A stretch of DNA of 42,336 bases from assembly GCA_943328915.2 (NCBI GenBank), contig CALQBW020000008.1, positions 1 through 42,336 of the forward strand, in the 5' to 3' direction. Numbering within the stretch: position 1 is the first letter of the stretch; every line of letters begins with the position of its first letter. A program made the position numbers and the translations under genes. Source of the stretch: Singulisphaera sp. GP187 (GTDB lineage Bacteria; Chloroflexota; Chloroflexia; Chloroflexales; Roseiflexaceae). Below the pieces are notes generated by a model that saw only the letters and a program-made list of their open reading frames with translations, ran no database searches and was not told the origin of the DNA. This document shows, in pieces, positions 5,790 through 13,172 of this stretch.

Positions 5790-6650
5790 CTATTTAATTT
5801 TTGGCTGTAGCCGGCGCACGAGTTCAACCGTATCTGCGGTTGTGAGCGTGCCTATATATACGTAGCGAATGTTGCCTTGGGTATCGAGGAAGTAGCTCAC
5901 TGGAATCGGGGAGATTTGATATTTTTGCGAAATCTCCCCTTTGATATCAAACACCACCGGGTAGGTTACACCATATTTTTCGACAAAATTCGCCACATCG
6001 GCATCACCAGCTGCACCGAGTGCTTCTTGGTGACGCAAGTTTACCCCCACAAACTCTACGCCTTGGGAATGCAATTGCAGGTAGGCTGCCTCAAGTGCCG
6101 GAGTTTCGGCTTTGCACGGCTCACACCAAGTCCCCCAAAAGTTGACCACAACGATCTTTCCTTTGAGATCAGCTAATTGGAGCTTCCCCCCGCCCAACCT
6201 TGGCAACGTAAAGGCGGGCGCAGCCCGATTGGTTTCGGCGGCGGCAGGCATGATTGGCGTCGCCATACGGCCACTGATGACCCAGACAATCGCCACAATC
6301 ACAATCCCGATAAGCCCGCCGAGAATTACCATGACCAATTCTTTGCGCAAAGGCGTACTCTCCACGTGCGGAGGTCTACCTGTTTGGAACTCAACTGGCG
6401 GTGGTTGCAGGAGCAAACCAAGCGAACGGTCATAGAAATACCGTTGCCGCGGATCACACAAAATATCACGCAATTTTTCATATTCGGCAATTCGTTGCTC
6501 CGCCAAATGCACCAACTCACCACTTGGATCAATTTGCATATCTGCACGGCAGCGTGCCACGGCGACTTGACACGCCGCAACGATATCGTCATTTGTTGCA
6601 TCGACTGCGATACCGAGTGTTTCGTAATACGTCGTGCGCGTTGTCATCAA
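5790..6650 (-). CDS. CcmG/ResA-like thioredoxin with N-terminal degenerate J domain
   Basis: A 286-residue fusion. Residues about 8-78 read as a J domain (YYETLGIAVDATNDDIV ... EKLRDILCDPRQRYFYDRS) but the HPD tripeptide needed to stimulate Hsp70 is absent (RCRAD in its place). One membrane helix follows (about 104-127, VMVILGGLIGIVIVAIVWVI). The outer part (about 144-286) is a TlpA/ResA/CcmG-type thioredoxin with active site WCEPC (C176, C179) and the cis-Pro region SPIPVSYF. Known members of that family reduce apocytochrome CXXCH cysteines outside the membrane so heme can be attached. With the J part in the cytoplasm, the topology is N-in/C-out. It is the last gene of the ccm cluster, 30 bases after the J/TPR gene, which fits a CcmG role. 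Confidence 0.85.
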   Translation of the reverse strand: MMTTRTTYYETLGIAVDATNDDIVAACQVAVARCRADMQIDPSGELVHLAEQRIAEYEKLRDILCDPRQRYFYDRSLGLLLQPPPVEFQTGRPPHVESTPLRKELVMVILGGLIGIVIVAIVWVISGRMATPIMPAAAETNRAAPAFTLPRLGGGKLQLADLKGKIVVVNFWGTWCEPCKAETPALEAAYLQLHSQGVEFVGVNLRHQEALGAAGDADVANFVEKYGVTYPVVFDIKGEISQKYQISPIPVSYFLDTQGNIRYVYIGTLTTADTVELVRRLQPKIK

Positions 6651-6680
6651 ATATCCTCTTAATACAAGCCGTCAACTGGT

Positions 6681-7679
6681 TTATTTTTTGATTTGGCGAA
6701 TCAGCTTGGTCGCTTGGATGGCAAACGGCGAATCACTTGCGACCAAGGTGGTGATTTTTTGCCAGGTTGCAATGGCTTCTTCGGATTGACGCGGCGTTGA
6801 TTCAGCCAAACAAAATCCGAGGTTCAACAATACGCGGGGCTGTTCGCTGTCGGGGATTTGGGCAAGTGCGTTGCGTATTTGTTGTAACCCAGCAGTTGCT
6901 TCACCTTGGTTATTGGTACCATTGCCATAAAAGCAACGACTCGCGCCCAAATCAGCTGCGACCACCACACTGCTGGGATCAAACGACAAGGCTTTGGCAT
7001 AGGCGTCAGCCGCCATCTGCCAACGCACAATCCGGTTTTGATACAACGGACTGTCTGGCTGTTGCTCACGCACAAACTGTACACTGTTGTAAAGCTGATT
7101 CCCATACTCCACCCATGCTTGAATGCTGGTGGGGTAGGCCACTGTAGCCGCCCGTGCATCGATAATGGCTTGCTCAAATTGATCCGCCACGGCGGCGGCA
7201 CGTGCCACCGGTTGGACGTCATTGCCTTCCGCCACTCTCTTGCCACCGTCGGTAATAATAAAGGTGGCCAACACAATCGCAAGCGGGAGCGCAATTGCCA
7301 GGACCAACGAAAATTGGCGCTCACCGAAGGTAAACCGAACTTTACGCTCAGGTGTAGGATCAAATTCCTGCGTCCGTTCGTTGCGCCCTGCCGCTGGCAA
7401 TGGGCGGTAGTCATAGCTTGGCTCAACGGCAACAGGTAAGGCGCGTTCAACCACGCCCGTGATACCCGCGTCATAGGCGGCGCGCATCATCACATCACCA
7501 ACAATCGCAAAGGCTTGATCAAGGGCGGCAGCACGCTCAGCAGCCAAGTCACGCAATTCGTCGCTTACCCCATGTAATCGGCTCGGGTCATATGCCACCC
7601 GTAAGCGCTGATAGACAGCTTCAATAGTCGCCTGATCAGCGTCACGCGGAACTTGTAATACCGCATAAAAATCTACCAT
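6681..7679 (-). CDS. TPR protein with N-terminal degenerate J domain (CcmI/NrfG-like)
   Basis: A 332-residue fusion. Residues about 2-71 resemble a J domain (VDFYAVLQVPRDADQATIEA ... AFAIVGDVMMRAAYDAG); at the HPD position it has YDPS, so His and Asp are lost. A charged linker is followed by one membrane helix (about 122-143, SLVLAIALPLAIVLATFII) and an outer helical-repeat region (about 160-332) with TPR-like units such as WVEYGNQLYNSVQF, AADAYAKALSFDPSS and RVLLNLGFCLAE. In other bacteria TPR proteins of the CcmI/CycH/NrfG type hold apocytochrome c for the heme lyase. Position between ccmF (12-base gap) and the thioredoxin fusion (30-base gap) supports this. Family assignment of the TPR part is by layout, not by a signature. 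Confidence 0.75.
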   Translation of the reverse strand: MVDFYAVLQVPRDADQATIEAVYQRLRVAYDPSRLHGVSDELRDLAAERAAALDQAFAIVGDVMMRAAYDAGITGVVERALPVAVEPSYDYRPLPAAGRNERTQEFDPTPERKVRFTFGERQFSLVLAIALPLAIVLATFIITDGGKRVAEGNDVQPVARAAAVADQFEQAIIDARAATVAYPTSIQAWVEYGNQLYNSVQFVREQQPDSPLYQNRIVRWQMAADAYAKALSFDPSSVVVAADLGASRCFYGNGTNNQGEATAGLQQIRNALAQIPDSEQPRVLLNLGFCLAESTPRQSEEAIATWQKITTLVASDSPFAIQATKLIRQIKK

Positions 7680-7691
7680 GAACCAACCTTC

Positions 7692-10067
7692 TTATTTCAC
7701 ACTTGGTAATGAATTGTCTCGACGCCAGCTCCGTGCCCATGTCATGAGTGATTCTGACCACACAGTGGGATTGATATTCCCTGATTCGAGTGAGCGGCGC
7801 AAGACGGCGAGGAACCCACCAAGTACGCCCAAAATAATCCCACCCCACACCAATGCAACGCCTGGCTTGACGATTACCGTGACCACGGCCCGTGCTGGGT
7901 TGATGGGCAAGTTCAGTCCGCCGACGTTGATAATCACCCGTTTTTGGCTTGGATCAAACGCCGCCATCGAAGCCCGATGACCACCCGGCAAGTCGACCGG
8001 CATCTCTTTGATGGCCTTGGCAGGGTCTTTTTCGTTGGCCAAAATCACAATGCCTGGCACAATTTCGCTGGTTTTGCCTTGATACACCACGGTCAAACGT
8101 GCGCTAATATCAGCCGAGGCGGCATGATCGGTCGGTACGACAAAGCCATTAAAGGTGATTTTGTAAGGACCGACTTCTTTGGTTTCGCCTTCATTGAGGT
8201 CGGCAATATTGCGATCAAACGGAGGTTGGTATTCCACCGGAGAAATATACAAATCCTGGAATATTTCGCTCCGTACCGACGGCGTGGCCATCGTGGCACC
8301 CATGCGATTGTTGAAGTAGAGTTGTGGTGTGGCAGTACTGACATTGCCACCACGGGCAACGCGCATATCAAGTAAGCCACGACCAGTGGCATCCATACGC
8401 CAGCCGTTAAAGGTCAAATCATACCCAAAAATCGTCATCGTTTCGCCTTCGGGAATCACGACGCGCGTTTCGGGAGTGGCATACCATGTCGAAGTAATTG
8501 CCCCTACTACAAACAACATAATCCCGACATGGGCCAAATAGCCACCGATCCGTAGAAAGCCGCCTTTAAGGGTGCGGATAATCATGGTCACATTGGTGCC
8601 GACGGCAAATGTCGCAATCCCCAAATAGGCCACGGCCATAAAGGTGCGGGCACCCAAAATTACACCCACGCAGGTCACGATGACGGCCACAATTCCGGGC
8701 CAGCGAATGGTACGGAGCAGTTGGCGGGCATTGCTGTCACGCCAACCCAGCAACGGCCCAACAATCATCAAAGCCGCCAAAATCAATCCGAGCGGCGCAA
8801 TGGTGGTGCTATAAAAACTGCCGATGAGGCCAAAGCGGCCATCTTGGAATGGTTTCGCTCCGGCGTTGTACGTCGTGCCATCATCTAATTGGAACATGGA
8901 TCCAAAAAATCCTTGCAACTGTTGTCCAACCCCTGGAAAAGCCGAAATCACTGGCATTGACGTACCCAACGCCACAATCCCCGCCATCAGCATCACGACC
9001 AAAATCATCAACGAGAAAAAACTATCGCGTGATAATAATTTCTCAGACATCGGCACTGAGGGGATATCGCGCCAACGCCAGGCAACCACACCAAAACCCA
9101 ATATTGCCAATATCGCCAAAAAGCTGGTCATCACCCACTTCAGGCCTTCTTCGACGAACGAGTGCACCGAAAAGGATGACAACACGCCGCTCCGGGTCAA
9201 AAAGGTCGAATAAAAGACCAGTACATAGGTCGCAACCGCCAACACTGCGGTAGTCCGGCGCAGCGAGCCTCCCGCACGTTGCACGAGCATGGCGTGGATG
9301 AGGGCTGCCACGGTCAACCACGGTACCAACGCCGAATTTTCGACGGGGTCCCAACCCCAGTACCCACCCCAACCCAACGTTTCGTAGGCCCAATAGCCAC
9401 CGAGGAGCAACGCCAAGCCCAACACCGCCCATGCGGCAATCGTCCAAGGCAACGCTGCTTTGACCCAGCCATCGTAATCGCGACGCCACAAACCGGCAAT
9501 GGCGTAGCTAAACGGCACCGCCATTAAGGCAAAGCCAGTAAACAAAATCGGGGGGTGAATCAACATCCAAATGTTGTGCAAGGTTGGATTTAAGCCTTTG
9601 CCATCGGTTGGCATGATTCCATCGGCTGTGACATGCAAAATAAATGGGTTGCGGATAAGCATGAATACGATCAAGGCACATTGAATAAACATTACCACAC
9701 TCAGCACATATGGCTCGGCGTGACGGGTACGTCGCACCAAAAACTGGGCACCGATGACCCCCCACAAGGCCCAAATCACAAACGACCCCGGTTGACCGGC
9801 CCAGACCGCTGCCACTCGGAAGTAGGATTCGAGATCTTGCGAGCTATAATTGTAGACGTATTCAACATCGTAGCGCTGTGCAACGAACAAATAATTCAAC
9901 ATCACCACAACGGCCAGGACTCCAACCAATGTCAATCGCGTGCCAATCCGACCATACTTCAATGCCTGTGGACGACCGAGTGGCACCAAACAATAACTGA
10001 TACTTGCCATAGCAGCCATGGCAATGGTTGCAACGATTAACAATGTCCCAAAAAAGTAAACTGACAT
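7692..10067 (-). CDS. ccmF: cytochrome c heme lyase subunit CcmF
   Basis: A 791-residue multi-spanning membrane protein that, in System I maturation, receives heme from CcmE and joins it to apocytochrome c on the outer face. Seen: the WWD domain WGGYWGWDPVEN (233-244), conserved His of IHPPILFTGFA (170-180), HSF in the loop after VLSSFSVHSFVEEGLKW, and a large outer C-terminal domain (about 530-735) before a final membrane helix (VALVWGGIILGVLGGFLAVL). Length is somewhat longer than the ~650 of proteobacterial CcmF because of that domain. It follows ccmE by 24 bases and precedes the J/TPR gene by 12. Confidence 0.93.
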   Translation of the reverse strand: MSVYFFGTLLIVATIAMAAMASISYCLVPLGRPQALKYGRIGTRLTLVGVLAVVVMLNYLFVAQRYDVEYVYNYSSQDLESYFRVAAVWAGQPGSFVIWALWGVIGAQFLVRRTRHAEPYVLSVVMFIQCALIVFMLIRNPFILHVTADGIMPTDGKGLNPTLHNIWMLIHPPILFTGFALMAVPFSYAIAGLWRRDYDGWVKAALPWTIAAWAVLGLALLLGGYWAYETLGWGGYWGWDPVENSALVPWLTVAALIHAMLVQRAGGSLRRTTAVLAVATYVLVFYSTFLTRSGVLSSFSVHSFVEEGLKWVMTSFLAILAILGFGVVAWRWRDIPSVPMSEKLLSRDSFFSLMILVVMLMAGIVALGTSMPVISAFPGVGQQLQGFFGSMFQLDDGTTYNAGAKPFQDGRFGLIGSFYSTTIAPLGLILAALMIVGPLLGWRDSNARQLLRTIRWPGIVAVIVTCVGVILGARTFMAVAYLGIATFAVGTNVTMIIRTLKGGFLRIGGYLAHVGIMLFVVGAITSTWYATPETRVVIPEGETMTIFGYDLTFNGWRMDATGRGLLDMRVARGGNVSTATPQLYFNNRMGATMATPSVRSEIFQDLYISPVEYQPPFDRNIADLNEGETKEVGPYKITFNGFVVPTDHAASADISARLTVVYQGKTSEIVPGIVILANEKDPAKAIKEMPVDLPGGHRASMAAFDPSQKRVIINVGGLNLPINPARAVVTVIVKPGVALVWGGIILGVLGGFLAVLRRSLESGNINPTVWSESLMTWARSWRRDNSLPSVK

Positions 10068-10091: not shown

Positions 10092-10517
10092 TTATTTAGC
10101 CGCAGTAGCGTTCAATTGCTCTTGATATTTCGATGGACATTTCACTAATAGACTTTCGGCCATGAAATTACCCGTTTTGACATCATAATTCCCTATCGCC
10201 ACAATACTCACTGCTTGTTCGAAATTTGATGGTTTGGGTTGACTATAAATCACAGGGATTTTTTGGCCCCGAGAGTCTTGTAACAAAAAAGTAAATTTGC
10301 CATCGGCGTTGTATTCGCCTTTATTGCCGAGAAACCCGGCCAATTGCACGCCACGCCCACTATCTTTGGCTTCGGCAATCAGCGTCGTATACGGCCGCAT
10401 TGATGAGCTCAGGCCATAATAGCCCAGCACAACCGACAACACAATTATCGCAATACCGATGAAATGCAACGGTCTCAGCTTCTGCTTCGTTGTGGGAGGC
10501 AATGTCATGTTCCTCAT
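10092..10517 (-). CDS. ccmE: heme chaperone CcmE, CXXXY type
   Basis: A 141-residue membrane-anchored heme carrier. One helix (about 19-35, FIGIAIIVLSVVLGYYG) then an OB-fold outer domain (GVQLAGFLGNKGEYNADGKF, VIYSQPKPSNFEQAVSIVAIG). In most CcmE a His in an HXXXY-type motif binds heme covalently; here the site reads LLVKCPSKY, so Cys127 replaces His and Tyr131 is kept. Cys-type (CXXXY) CcmE proteins are known from some delta-proteobacteria such as Desulfovibrio and from archaea, and often occur where CcmH is missing. Start chosen at 10517 because AAGGA precedes it at good spacing; an ATG three codons later is possible. Confidence 0.9.
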   Translation of the reverse strand: MRNMTLPPTTKQKLRPLHFIGIAIIVLSVVLGYYGLSSSMRPYTTLIAEAKDSGRGVQLAGFLGNKGEYNADGKFTFLLQDSRGQKIPVIYSQPKPSNFEQAVSIVAIGNYDVKTGNFMAESLLVKCPSKYQEQLNATAAK

Positions 10518-10553: not shown

Positions 10554-10754
10554 CTACTCCGCGGAACGATCATTGGTTATGGTAGCCCGTGGTGCGGGGG
10601 CATCAGTGCTGCTAGTGCGTTCGTTGAGTTGGCGCGCCACGTCTTGGGTGGCATGGTCAATCCGCAATAAATAGAAGAACACCCCAACCCAAACAATCAA
10701 CGCCGTCGACATTGCCACATAAATGGCAACCCCTGCATCAAGGATTGTGGTCAT
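10554..10754 (-). CDS. ccmD: CcmD-like small membrane protein
   Basis: A 66-residue protein with one membrane helix (about 9-30, AIYVAMSTALIVWVGVFFYLL) followed by a charged cytoplasmic tail beginning RIDHATQDVARQL. In System I, CcmD is a small single-span protein that helps release holo-CcmE from CcmC and CcmAB. The assignment rests on size, layout, and position: its start overlaps the stop of ccmC by 4 bases and ccmE follows 36 bases later. Sequence conservation in this family is low. Confidence 0.75.
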   Translation of the reverse strand: MTTILDAGVAIYVAMSTALIVWVGVFFYLLRIDHATQDVARQLNERTSSTDAPAPRATITNDRSAE

Positions 10755-11716
10755 ATGTTTATCTCCCCTGGGGTCAGCGTCAGCTGCACCTGCAAAATCG
10801 TCCGTCGGATTTTATACAACCAAAACGCCAAGGCCAAAAAGCCTAAATTGCTCGCCAAAAAGACCCACAATGTACGGGGATTGCTCAATAAATTCGTGCC
10901 AGGCGCTTGCATATTGACCCGTATCGTCCCAGCAGTTGCATCGGCTTCAAGCAATACCATGCGGAATTGTTGGCCAGGGAATTCGGGGCGATCGGCCGGC
11001 TTGCCGTCACCATCGAGTGACGGCACCAACGTGGCAATATTTTTCATCCCCGGCATACGTACTTCTATAGTGGCGTGGGTGAGTGTCCCAGTTTTGACGA
11101 GTGATTTGAATTCAATCACCACATCACCTAACTGGCCGATTTTGGCTCCGGTCAGACTGAGCGAAATCCCATCACATTTGCTGCCCTGCAAAAAAGCACA
11201 ATTGGGGTGGAGCGTACTATCGGCCACGCGCGGCGCCACAAACAACAAAAAGGGCATCGTCACTGCTGCAAAAATATTATAGACGGCAGCCAAACGGCGC
11301 CGCCGCTCACTGTCGTCGACCGACGAACGCAACGCAAAGTAAGCCGCATAAATCAACAACAACACGAGGATGGAAGTTTCACGTGGGTCCCAATTCCAAA
11401 ACGTGCCCCAAACGACTTCGGCGAAAATAGAACCGGTGATTGTGGCAAATATACAATAAAGTGTGCCTACTTCCGCAGCAGCTACTGCGGCCACGTCGCT
11501 TGCAGGGTTACGCTTCCATAAATAAATGATGCTATAGATTGCAGACAAACAGAACGCCGCTGATGTAATCCACGCCACAGGCACATGCACGATGATAATT
11601 CGGCCCGCATCACCCAAGCCAACGTATTGCGGTACCACTAAAAACATCGTATAGATAACGGCAGCAATCCACAATCCGAGGAAAATTTTTAGACCGTCGC
11701 CTTTGCGAAGCGCCAT
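10751..11716 (-). CDS. ccmC: heme handling protein CcmC with extra outer-loop domain
   Basis: A 321-residue membrane protein that loads heme onto CcmE. Seen: WWD motif WGTFWNWDPRET (103-114), first conserved His in RIIIVHVPVAWI (about 39-50), second in ADSTLHPN (about 165-172). Usual CcmC is about 240 residues with a short loop after the TLHP segment; here about 95 extra residues, including two Cys (CAFLQGSKC), are inserted before the last helix (LWVFLASNLGFLALAFWLY). The insert reads like a small beta-rich outer domain. A good SD (GAGGAG) precedes the ATG. It is separated from ccmB by 152 bases that hold a possible internal promoter. Confidence 0.9.
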   Translation of the reverse strand: MALRKGDGLKIFLGLWIAAVIYTMFLVVPQYVGLGDAGRIIIVHVPVAWITSAAFCLSAIYSIIYLWKRNPASDVAAVAAAEVGTLYCIFATITGSIFAEVVWGTFWNWDPRETSILVLLLIYAAYFALRSSVDDSERRRRLAAVYNIFAAVTMPFLLFVAPRVADSTLHPNCAFLQGSKCDGISLSLTGAKIGQLGDVVIEFKSLVKTGTLTHATIEVRMPGMKNIATLVPSLDGDGKPADRPEFPGQQFRMVLLEADATAGTIRVNMQAPGTNLLSNPRTLWVFLASNLGFLALAFWLYKIRRTILQVQLTLTPGEINI

Positions 11717-11868: not shown

Positions 11869-12552
11869 TCATTCCCAAACGGTGGCAAACAAAAACAACG
11901 ACGTGACAAACATCGCCACGGCATAGGCCAACAAGGTTTGGATGGGGGCCATACCGCGCTCCCAATTAACCCCGGCCAACGCCATGGCGGTACCACGCAC
12001 CGCCGTCACCAACATTGGGATGAGGATTGGCAAAGACAATACGGCAAACAACGCTCCTCGCGAGCTCGAGCGGGCAATAATTGCTGCTACCAACGTCGTA
12101 CCAGCCACCAAGGCCAGAGATCCCGACAGCAACATGCCAATCAACAAATCGCTGGCACCGACCCGAATATGCAACATCACAATGGCCAAAATAGTCACTA
12201 ATATGGTCAACCCCAACAACAATACCAAATTAAAACAGAGCTTGCCTAAATAGACTGCAATCGGTGGGGCTGCCAGACGCAACGCGGCAGCCGTGCGTTG
12301 TTCTTCTTCTACCACAAACACTCGTGCAAGGGCGGTAAACGCCGCAAACAACAGTACAATCCACAAAAACGCCGCATGCACCAACGCAACATCTGCCGAA
12401 GGCATCAACGGACCAAGCCCAAGGCTGACGGTGACCACACTACAAATCGCAAACAAGGCTACCGCATTCAAGGCTTGGCGATTGCGTAGTTCACTCCGCA
12501 ATTCACGCAAAAAAATTGCCCGCGTGGCGCGCCAAATCAATGGATCAATCAT
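11869..12552 (-). CDS. ccmB: heme exporter/CcmAB permease subunit CcmB
   Basis: A 227-residue membrane protein with about six helices, starting MIDPLIWRATRAIFLRELRS, a typical CcmB opening (cytoplasmic amphipathic segment before helix 1). VFVVEEEQRTAAALRLAA marks the characteristic cytoplasmic loop, and LLSGSLALVAGTTLVAAI and VLSLPILIPMLVTAV match later helices. With CcmA it forms an ABC transporter whose ATP hydrolysis releases holo-CcmE from CcmC. Its ATG overlaps the ccmA stop by 4 bases. Confidence 0.92.
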   Translation of the reverse strand: MIDPLIWRATRAIFLRELRSELRNRQALNAVALFAICSVVTVSLGLGPLMPSADVALVHAAFLWIVLLFAAFTALARVFVVEEEQRTAAALRLAAPPIAVYLGKLCFNLVLLLGLTILVTILAIVMLHIRVGASDLLIGMLLSGSLALVAGTTLVAAIIARSSSRGALFAVLSLPILIPMLVTAVRGTAMALAGVNWERGMAPIQTLLAYAVAMFVTSLFLFATVWE

Positions 12553-13172
12553 ATTGCCACCTCGAGTGCCACCAACACATCCGCAAAGCGCCGCTCACGC
12601 TCGTCGTTGGTGGCGATAATCGTCATACCGTGCTGGCGTTGGCGGGCTACCACCCGCGCCAACAAGTCGTGGCCAGTGGCATCGAGCATTACACTGGGCT
12701 CATCAAGCAACAACAACGCCGGTTGGTGGAGCAAGGCGTAGGCATAGCGCAAGCGGTGCGTCATCCCCGACGAGTACGTCGCCAGCAAATCACCCCCACG
12801 CCCCTCCAAGCCGACTTCACAGAGCAATTCGGCAATAGCAGTGTCGGTAATGGTAAAGCCACGGACATCCGCAAAAAAGCGTAGGTTTTCGTGACCGGTG
12901 AGTTCACGGTAGAGCATCAAATCGGGTGCCATCCAGCCGATTGCATGGCGCATCTGTAGCGGGGCATAGCGTACCGTATCTGCGATACACCAGACCGCAC
13001 CGGCTGTTGGCCGTTGCAATCCGGCGATGACCCGTAGCAACGTACTTTTGCCACTACCGTTACTCCCAGTCACCACTACTACTTGACCAGTGGTTACCTG
13101 CAACGACAAATCGTGGAGGACACGCCGGCGCCCATAATCGAGGGTGATATGTGTGAGTTCCAAAGCCTGCAT
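12549..13172 (-). CDS. ccmA: cytochrome c maturation ABC ATPase CcmA
   Basis: A 207-residue ABC ATPase, first gene of the ccm cluster. Walker A is GSNGSGKST (36-44), the signature is degenerate as YSSGM (about 133-137, in place of LSGGQ), Walker B is ALLLLDEPS (about 152-160). Near-normal length for CcmA (about 200-215). It powers the CcmAB complex that frees heme-loaded CcmE. Overlaps ccmB by 4 bases. The upstream 320 bases toward the ChrB-like gene must hold its promoter; a CATAAT about 50 bases upstream is the best -10 candidate but lacks a partner at 17 bases. Confidence 0.92.
   Translation of the reverse strand: MQALELTHITLDYGRRRVLHDLSLQVTTGQVVVVTGSNGSGKSTLLRVIAGLQRPTAGAVWCIADTVRYAPLQMRHAIGWMAPDLMLYRELTGHENLRFFADVRGFTITDTAIAELLCEVGLEGRGGDLLATYSSGMTHRLRYAYALLHQPALLLLDEPSVMLDATGHDLLARVVARQRQHGMTIIATNDERERRFADVLVALEVAI

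Follow-up and report, generated by a model that had tools for sequence, protein, structure and literature searches.

HPD-less J-like domains on two membrane-anchored proteins of the Chloroflexales cytochrome c maturation locus

Two fusion proteins at the end of a ccm cluster

The stretch of DNA that we analyzed (the window, 42,336 nucleotides) is a contig of a 2.9-Mb Chloroflexota genome from the order Chloroflexales, which takes in the Roseiflexus, Chloroflexus, and Oscillochloris genomes. By ORF and profile scans of the window, a ccmA-like gene, ccmB, ccmC, ccmE, and ccmF follow one another on the minus strand. After a gap of 12 nt, ccmF is followed by the gene for J-TPR, a protein with a J-like domain and TPR repeats, and about 30 nt further on by the gene for J-Trx, in which a J-like domain is joined to a thioredoxin-like domain (Table 1). 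A sequence-only reading of this DNA had claimed that these adjacent genes share one design, consisting of a J-like domain, a membrane helix, and an outer effector domain. We recovered both ORFs at the positions given in that reading, and the design recurs across the order. The heme site of the window's CcmE is of the CxxxY type, with Cys rather than His, as it is in 58 of the 58 CcmE sequences of the order in our set. Promoter-like sites within the cluster were at chance level (10 found versus 9.9 expected).

Table 1. Genes, domains, and sites of the ccm cluster and of its two terminal fusion genes (positions in the window)
Feature	Position	Strand	Basis or detail
ccmA-like ABC ATPase gene	12549..13172	-	ORF with Walker A and signature motifs, adjoins ccmB; family by position
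ccmB	11869..12552	-	Profile matches
ccmC	10751..11716	-	Profile matches
ccmE, CxxxY type	10092..10517	-	CcmE 5e-13; motif
ccmF	7692..10067	-	Cytochrom_C_asm and CcmF_C; nrfE/ccmF models
J-TPR gene, 332 aa	6681..7679	-	ORF; J-like N terminus, then a linker, one membrane helix, and a TPR domain outside
J-like domain of J-TPR, residues 1-76	7452..7679	-	AlphaFold pLDDT 92-97 over residues 1-70
HPD position of J-TPR (DPS), residues 31-33	7581..7589	-	Alignment to E. coli DnaJ
Conserved linker of J-TPR, predicted cytoplasmic, residues 90-110	7350..7412	-	Consensus DYRPLPPAxxQERPxxFNxQP
Membrane helix of J-TPR, residues 123-143	7251..7313	-	Model helix and hydrophobic sequence; predicted topology
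Outer TPR domain of J-TPR, residues 157-331	6687..7211	-	AlphaFold model; Foldseek TPR matches
Cys249 codon of J-TPR	6933..6935	-	Coupled with Cys290
Cys290 codon of J-TPR	6810..6812	-	Coupled with Cys249
J-Trx gene, 285-286 aa	5790..6650	-	ORF; J-like N terminus, one membrane helix, and a CcmG/ResA-like thioredoxin-like domain outside
J-like domain of J-Trx, residues about 4-76	6420..6638	-	AlphaFold four helices; Foldseek; PDB profile search
HPD position of J-Trx (RAD), residues 34-36	6540..6548	-	Alignment to E. coli DnaJ
Predicted membrane helix of J-Trx, residues about 104-126	6270..6338	-	Hydrophobic stretch LVMVILGGLIGIVIVAIVWVISG in translation; predicted topology
Outer thioredoxin-like domain of J-Trx, residues about 140-283	5799..6230	-	Pfam; WCEPC at 6114-6128

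The J-Trx ORF starts at an ATG at 6647 or at an alternative TTG at 6650, a small correction to the earlier reading. Its outer part has the family trait of CcmG and ResA, a thioredoxin-like fold with an active-site CxxC, and both cysteines of its WCEPC motif are invariant across the family. Pfam assigned AhpC-TSA (5e-29) and Redoxin (1e-22) to the protein, which falls below the curated NCBIfam cut-offs for ResA (130.8 of 170 bits) and DsbE/CcmG (63.6 of 123.15 bits). A basic juxtamembrane motif near LSRRE is present in J-Trx and is also kept by relatives that have no J-like domain.

In J-TPR, the TPR fold is modeled with high confidence, and the TPR family of CcmI (TPR_CcmH_CycH, PF23914) matches at 19.5 of 42 bits, below its cut-off. 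The best NCBIfam match, the cold-adaptation model ActJ, lies far under its own cut-off (33.7 of 150 bits). The linker is strikingly conserved, with D90 and P93 at 100%, L94 at 98%, A97 at 97%, and P95, E101, and R102 at 95%. Residues that are at least 90% conserved make up 35% of positions 88-110, versus 24% of the J-like domain and 11% of the TPR part, and the DYRPLP core survives in the J-less locus L049. The window's J-TPR has no cysteines other than Cys249 and Cys290, which lie in the outer TPR domain. These are all-or-none, with both in 57 of 67 homologues and neither in 10, a pattern that tracks families and may therefore be one event. Their coupling across the sequences suggests a disulfide pair. 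The homologue search for J-TPR used an alignment of a closer set, not of 20 diverse proteins.

A J-like fold in residues 1-75 of each protein was also part of the sequence-only reading, and structure models and profile comparison confirmed it. Using family alignments, AlphaFold modeled four-helix J folds in J-Trx (helices 7-11, 19-39, 43-64, and 66-75) and in J-TPR (helices 4-8, 16-29, 40-60, and 63-80), and most J residues in both models have a pLDDT above 90. Foldseek matches to the N terminus of J-Trx were almost all J domains, with a probability of 1.00 but E values of 1e-3 or weaker, and the top TM-score was 0.83 by target length (5nro_B). When a profile from 26 J-Trx N termini was compared with the PDB, solved J domains were matched at up to 8e-16; the Pfam DnaJ model gave J-Trx 15.9 bits, below its cut-off. 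The full-length Foldseek search with J-TPR was swamped by the TPR part and is uninformative on its J-like domain, the fold of which rests on the model helices and on a Pfam DnaJ score of 27.4 bits against a cut-off of 27.8 (30.4 bits in the whole-genome search).

Loss of the HPD motif and spread of the fusion

The His and Asp of HPD had been read as lost in both proteins (RCRAD in one and YDPS in the other), and the alignment bears this out for the family as a whole. At the HPD columns, the motif occurs in 0 of 67 J-TPR and 0 of 46 ccm-linked J-Trx sequences, versus 44 of 50 other J proteins; some of the sequences counted come from genomes that are identical or nearly so, and some of the comparison proteins had been picked by a J-like pattern. 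The single HPD among 47 J-Trx sequences is that of L125, outside any ccm locus. Since these domains have the J fold and lack the HPD motif, we call them J-like and do not class J-Trx and J-TPR as J proteins.

The L125 sequence itself (L125:2-1363, from a Chloroflexi MAG) joins an intact-HPD J domain to a hydrophobic segment and a thioredoxin-like domain, and it is a separate J-TM-Trx fusion. The order also has HPD-bearing J proteins of 411-461 aa (G000:C110, which is L003 from the window's own genome, and L064, L068, L069, and L070), whose C-terminal parts are poorly characterized, with a weak TPR match in one.

Close pairs with measurable dS gave dN/dS values of about 0.03-0.11 for the J part of J-TPR and about 0.07-0.20 for that of J-Trx, near or somewhat above those of their own outer domains. 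By this sequence measure, the J parts are under purifying selection and constitute a retained J-like fold without the Hsp70 motif, which fits a noncatalytic role such as docking. The low ratios disfavor decay of the domains.

Other J features persist as well, namely, the helix II arginines and the R..YD end of helix IV, both kept in many members. Their persistence, and the fact that the window's own genome encodes two DnaK and three HPD-type J proteins, would agree with J-like domains that still touch Hsp70, whether as decoys for DnaK and its J proteins near the membrane or as their regulators, and thereby tune apocytochrome supply. However, HPD, which is required for Hsp70 interaction and ATPase stimulation (PMC11349236), is lost in every member, and we regard such contact as quite improbable; the domains would not be expected to activate Hsp70.

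Within the Chloroflexales, J-TPR lies directly after ccmF in nearly every locus, and the J architecture recurs order-wide. Both proteins carry the J-like domain in 42 of 69 locus entries; in 11 it is present on the TPR protein with a J-less or fragmentary Trx protein, and in 2 (L049 and L050) neither protein has it. Three entries have it on the Trx protein only, all of them split or contig-end ORFs, and in the remaining entries one gene is absent from the stretch. We infer that the J-less family f3 is Herpetosiphon. Given its absence from both proteins in L049 and L050 and from many Trx proteins, the J-like domain is not essential to the module everywhere. Such repeated absences, with the juxtamembrane motifs staying in place, could mean that the J-like domains next to the membrane are spare parts that do little by themselves, the actual work being left to the linker and the outer domains. 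We find this highly improbable in view of the order-wide retention of the domains, their low dN/dS, and their conserved positions.

The fusion was confined to the Chloroflexales in our survey of Chloroflexota ccm loci: none of the ORFs near ccm had a J domain in the 60 ccm regions covered, which came from 43 other families of the phylum, same-class families included, a few of these regions ending at contig edges. A ResA/CcmG-like protein is present in many of the 60. In four draft-genome loci (L111, L112, L114, and L083), two ORFs take the place of J-TPR or J-Trx, through either sequencing error or true fission. The records L102 and L111, labeled Cyanobacteria bacterium M5B4 and Candidatus Gracilibacteria, also contain Chloroflexales-type ccm loci and are probably misbinned contigs.

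In a tree of 121 J domains with the HPD columns removed, all ccm J domains fall on one side of a 100/98 branch, and the Trx copies are nested among part of the TPR copies (98/93); the tree has 71 columns and some long branches, and its outgroup is partly biased by the search pattern. As the simplest reading, this topology favors one J acquisition followed by copying to the neighboring gene, and it disfavors separate gains by the two genes.

The same nesting bears on a sharper version of the docking idea, in which the J-like domains, having arisen by duplication, pair specifically with each other in the manner of Pam16 and Pam18 and so physically couple the reductase to the TPR protein that would hold the apocytochrome. 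In intact loci, the Trx protein has a J-like domain only where the TPR protein also has one, and the trypanosome Pam16 and Pam18, which both lack HPD, probably heterodimerize, and their action is believed to be independent of Hsp70 (PMC11349236). Yet the nesting also fits simple descent and loss, and the 11 loci with a J-like domain on the TPR protein and a J-less or fragmentary Trx protein imply that the TPR copy must have another role or partner too. We therefore judge specific pairing to be rather unlikely. We reject the idea that the J-like domains serve solely as an obligatory J-J pair, as the TPR protein keeps its J-like domain where the Trx protein has none.

Missing CcmH and CcmI signatures

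CcmH (PF03918) was detected in 0 of 40 Chloroflexales genomes, and the CcmI signature TIGR03142, which covers the N-terminal domain, was likewise detected in 0 of 40, the window's own genome included; control genomes matched both models. The absence of TIGR03142 is weaker evidence than that of CcmH, because this model also gives low scores, 17.5 bits at most, to the small CcmI-like proteins found elsewhere in the phylum. These absences had escaped the sequence-only reading, as had the linker and the cysteine pair of J-TPR.

CcmH is present in 78 of 89 other ccmE-bearing Chloroflexota genomes, and in three loci from other Chloroflexota (L172, L206, and L210) ccmF is followed directly by ccmH and a small CcmI-like ORF. 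J-TPR sits in the slot that these two genes hold elsewhere in the phylum, and what it has in common with CcmH is position only. In 11 of the 89 ccmE-bearing genomes outside the order, CcmH was not detected, and seven of these belong to family f31 (G174, G182, G213, G220, G227, G234, and G248). The f31 ccm region L173 has no J fusion, so loss of CcmH alone does not explain or require the J-like domain.

The question of how cytochromes c mature where CcmH and CcmI are missing has been raised for archaea (PMC9084895). It is conceivable, though in our estimate unlikely, that a non-orthologous heme-ligation module took the place of CcmH and CcmI in the Chloroflexales, in which Cys249 and Cys290 would stand for the CcmH thiols, J-Trx would be the reductant, and the J-like domains would dock to CcmF. 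If true, J-TPR and J-Trx would be linked to each other and to CcmF via their cytoplasmic HPD-less J-like domains. The order lacks CcmH and CcmI signatures and has a different conserved protein pair in the slot, which makes such a substitution directly testable.

A possible docking role and its parallels in known systems

We propose, tentatively and at somewhat less than an even chance, that the HPD-less J-like domains are Hsp70-independent docking modules within a Chloroflexales-specific module that stands in for CcmH and CcmI. J-Trx and J-TPR would then be membrane-anchored parts of a Chloroflexales variant of System I without CcmH and without a CcmI signature protein. On the outer side, the apocytochrome would be held beside CcmF by the TPR domain of J-TPR, a CcmI-like role, and the WCEPC domain of J-Trx would keep cysteines reduced, a CcmG/ResA-like role, with reductant perhaps coming from the genome's one DsbD/CcdA-like protein. 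In the cytoplasm, the J-like domains and the J-TPR linker would keep the two proteins attached to each other or to a further Ccm protein. The sequence-only reading had suggested that the J parts may dock to each other, to CcmABCF, or to the Sec/ribosome side, all of which are candidate partners. The closest structural parallel for such docking is NdhU, whose J-like domain and loop anchor it in the chloroplast NDH complex. The Chloroflexales pair would be a bacterial case of J-like domains serving as structural docking parts and not as Hsp70 switches.

The fusion had been thought to be without earlier description, and our search of open-access papers likewise found no J fusion described for cytochrome c maturation. 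Database records may already name J-Trx and J-TPR as J domain-containing.

Compared with CcmG/ResA of System I, J-Trx is alike in being anchored to the membrane near its N terminus, in its predicted outer CxxC-bearing thioredoxin-like fold, and in its location in a ccm locus, but it has an extra, predicted cytoplasmic, J-like domain and scores below the curated models for ResA and DsbE/CcmG. J-TPR resembles the System I CcmI in having a predicted outer TPR domain on a membrane anchor and in adjoining ccmF. Proteobacterial CcmI also has a cytoplasmic region, which contains a leucine zipper in R. capsulatus (PMC3884852). However, CcmI has two helices and a cytoplasmic loop, whereas J-TPR has one helix and a J-like domain, lacks TIGR03142, and matches PF23914 below the cut-off. 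The archaeal Ccm system of M. acetivorans shares with the Chloroflexales a CxxxY CcmE and the lack of CcmH or CcmI, and its authors hold non-orthologous replacement to be unlikely (PMC9084895). Unlike in M. acetivorans, J-TPR and J-Trx fill the CcmH/CcmI slot in the Chloroflexales.

Other parallels lie among J-like proteins. In NdhU/CRRL of the chloroplast NDH complex, the J-like domain and the connecting loop both contact neighboring NDH subunits (PMC12170339, PMC9407819). Its J-like domain, linker loop, and single membrane helix make for a resemblance in design, not membership, as it has no outer effector domain and belongs to an unrelated complex. Pam16 and Pam18 of trypanosomes (PMC11349236) are likewise two membrane-anchored, HPD-less J-like proteins thought to act independently of Hsp70, but they have no Trx or TPR parts and reside in the mitochondrial inner membrane, and in the Chloroflexales such pairing is only a candidate. 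ERdj5 (PDB 3apq) combines J and thioredoxin domains in one protein, as J-Trx does. In ERdj5, the two share a compartment and the J domain works with the Hsp70 BiP (PMC10591012), whereas the J-like and thioredoxin-like domains of J-Trx are predicted to lie on opposite sides of the membrane, and HPD is lost.
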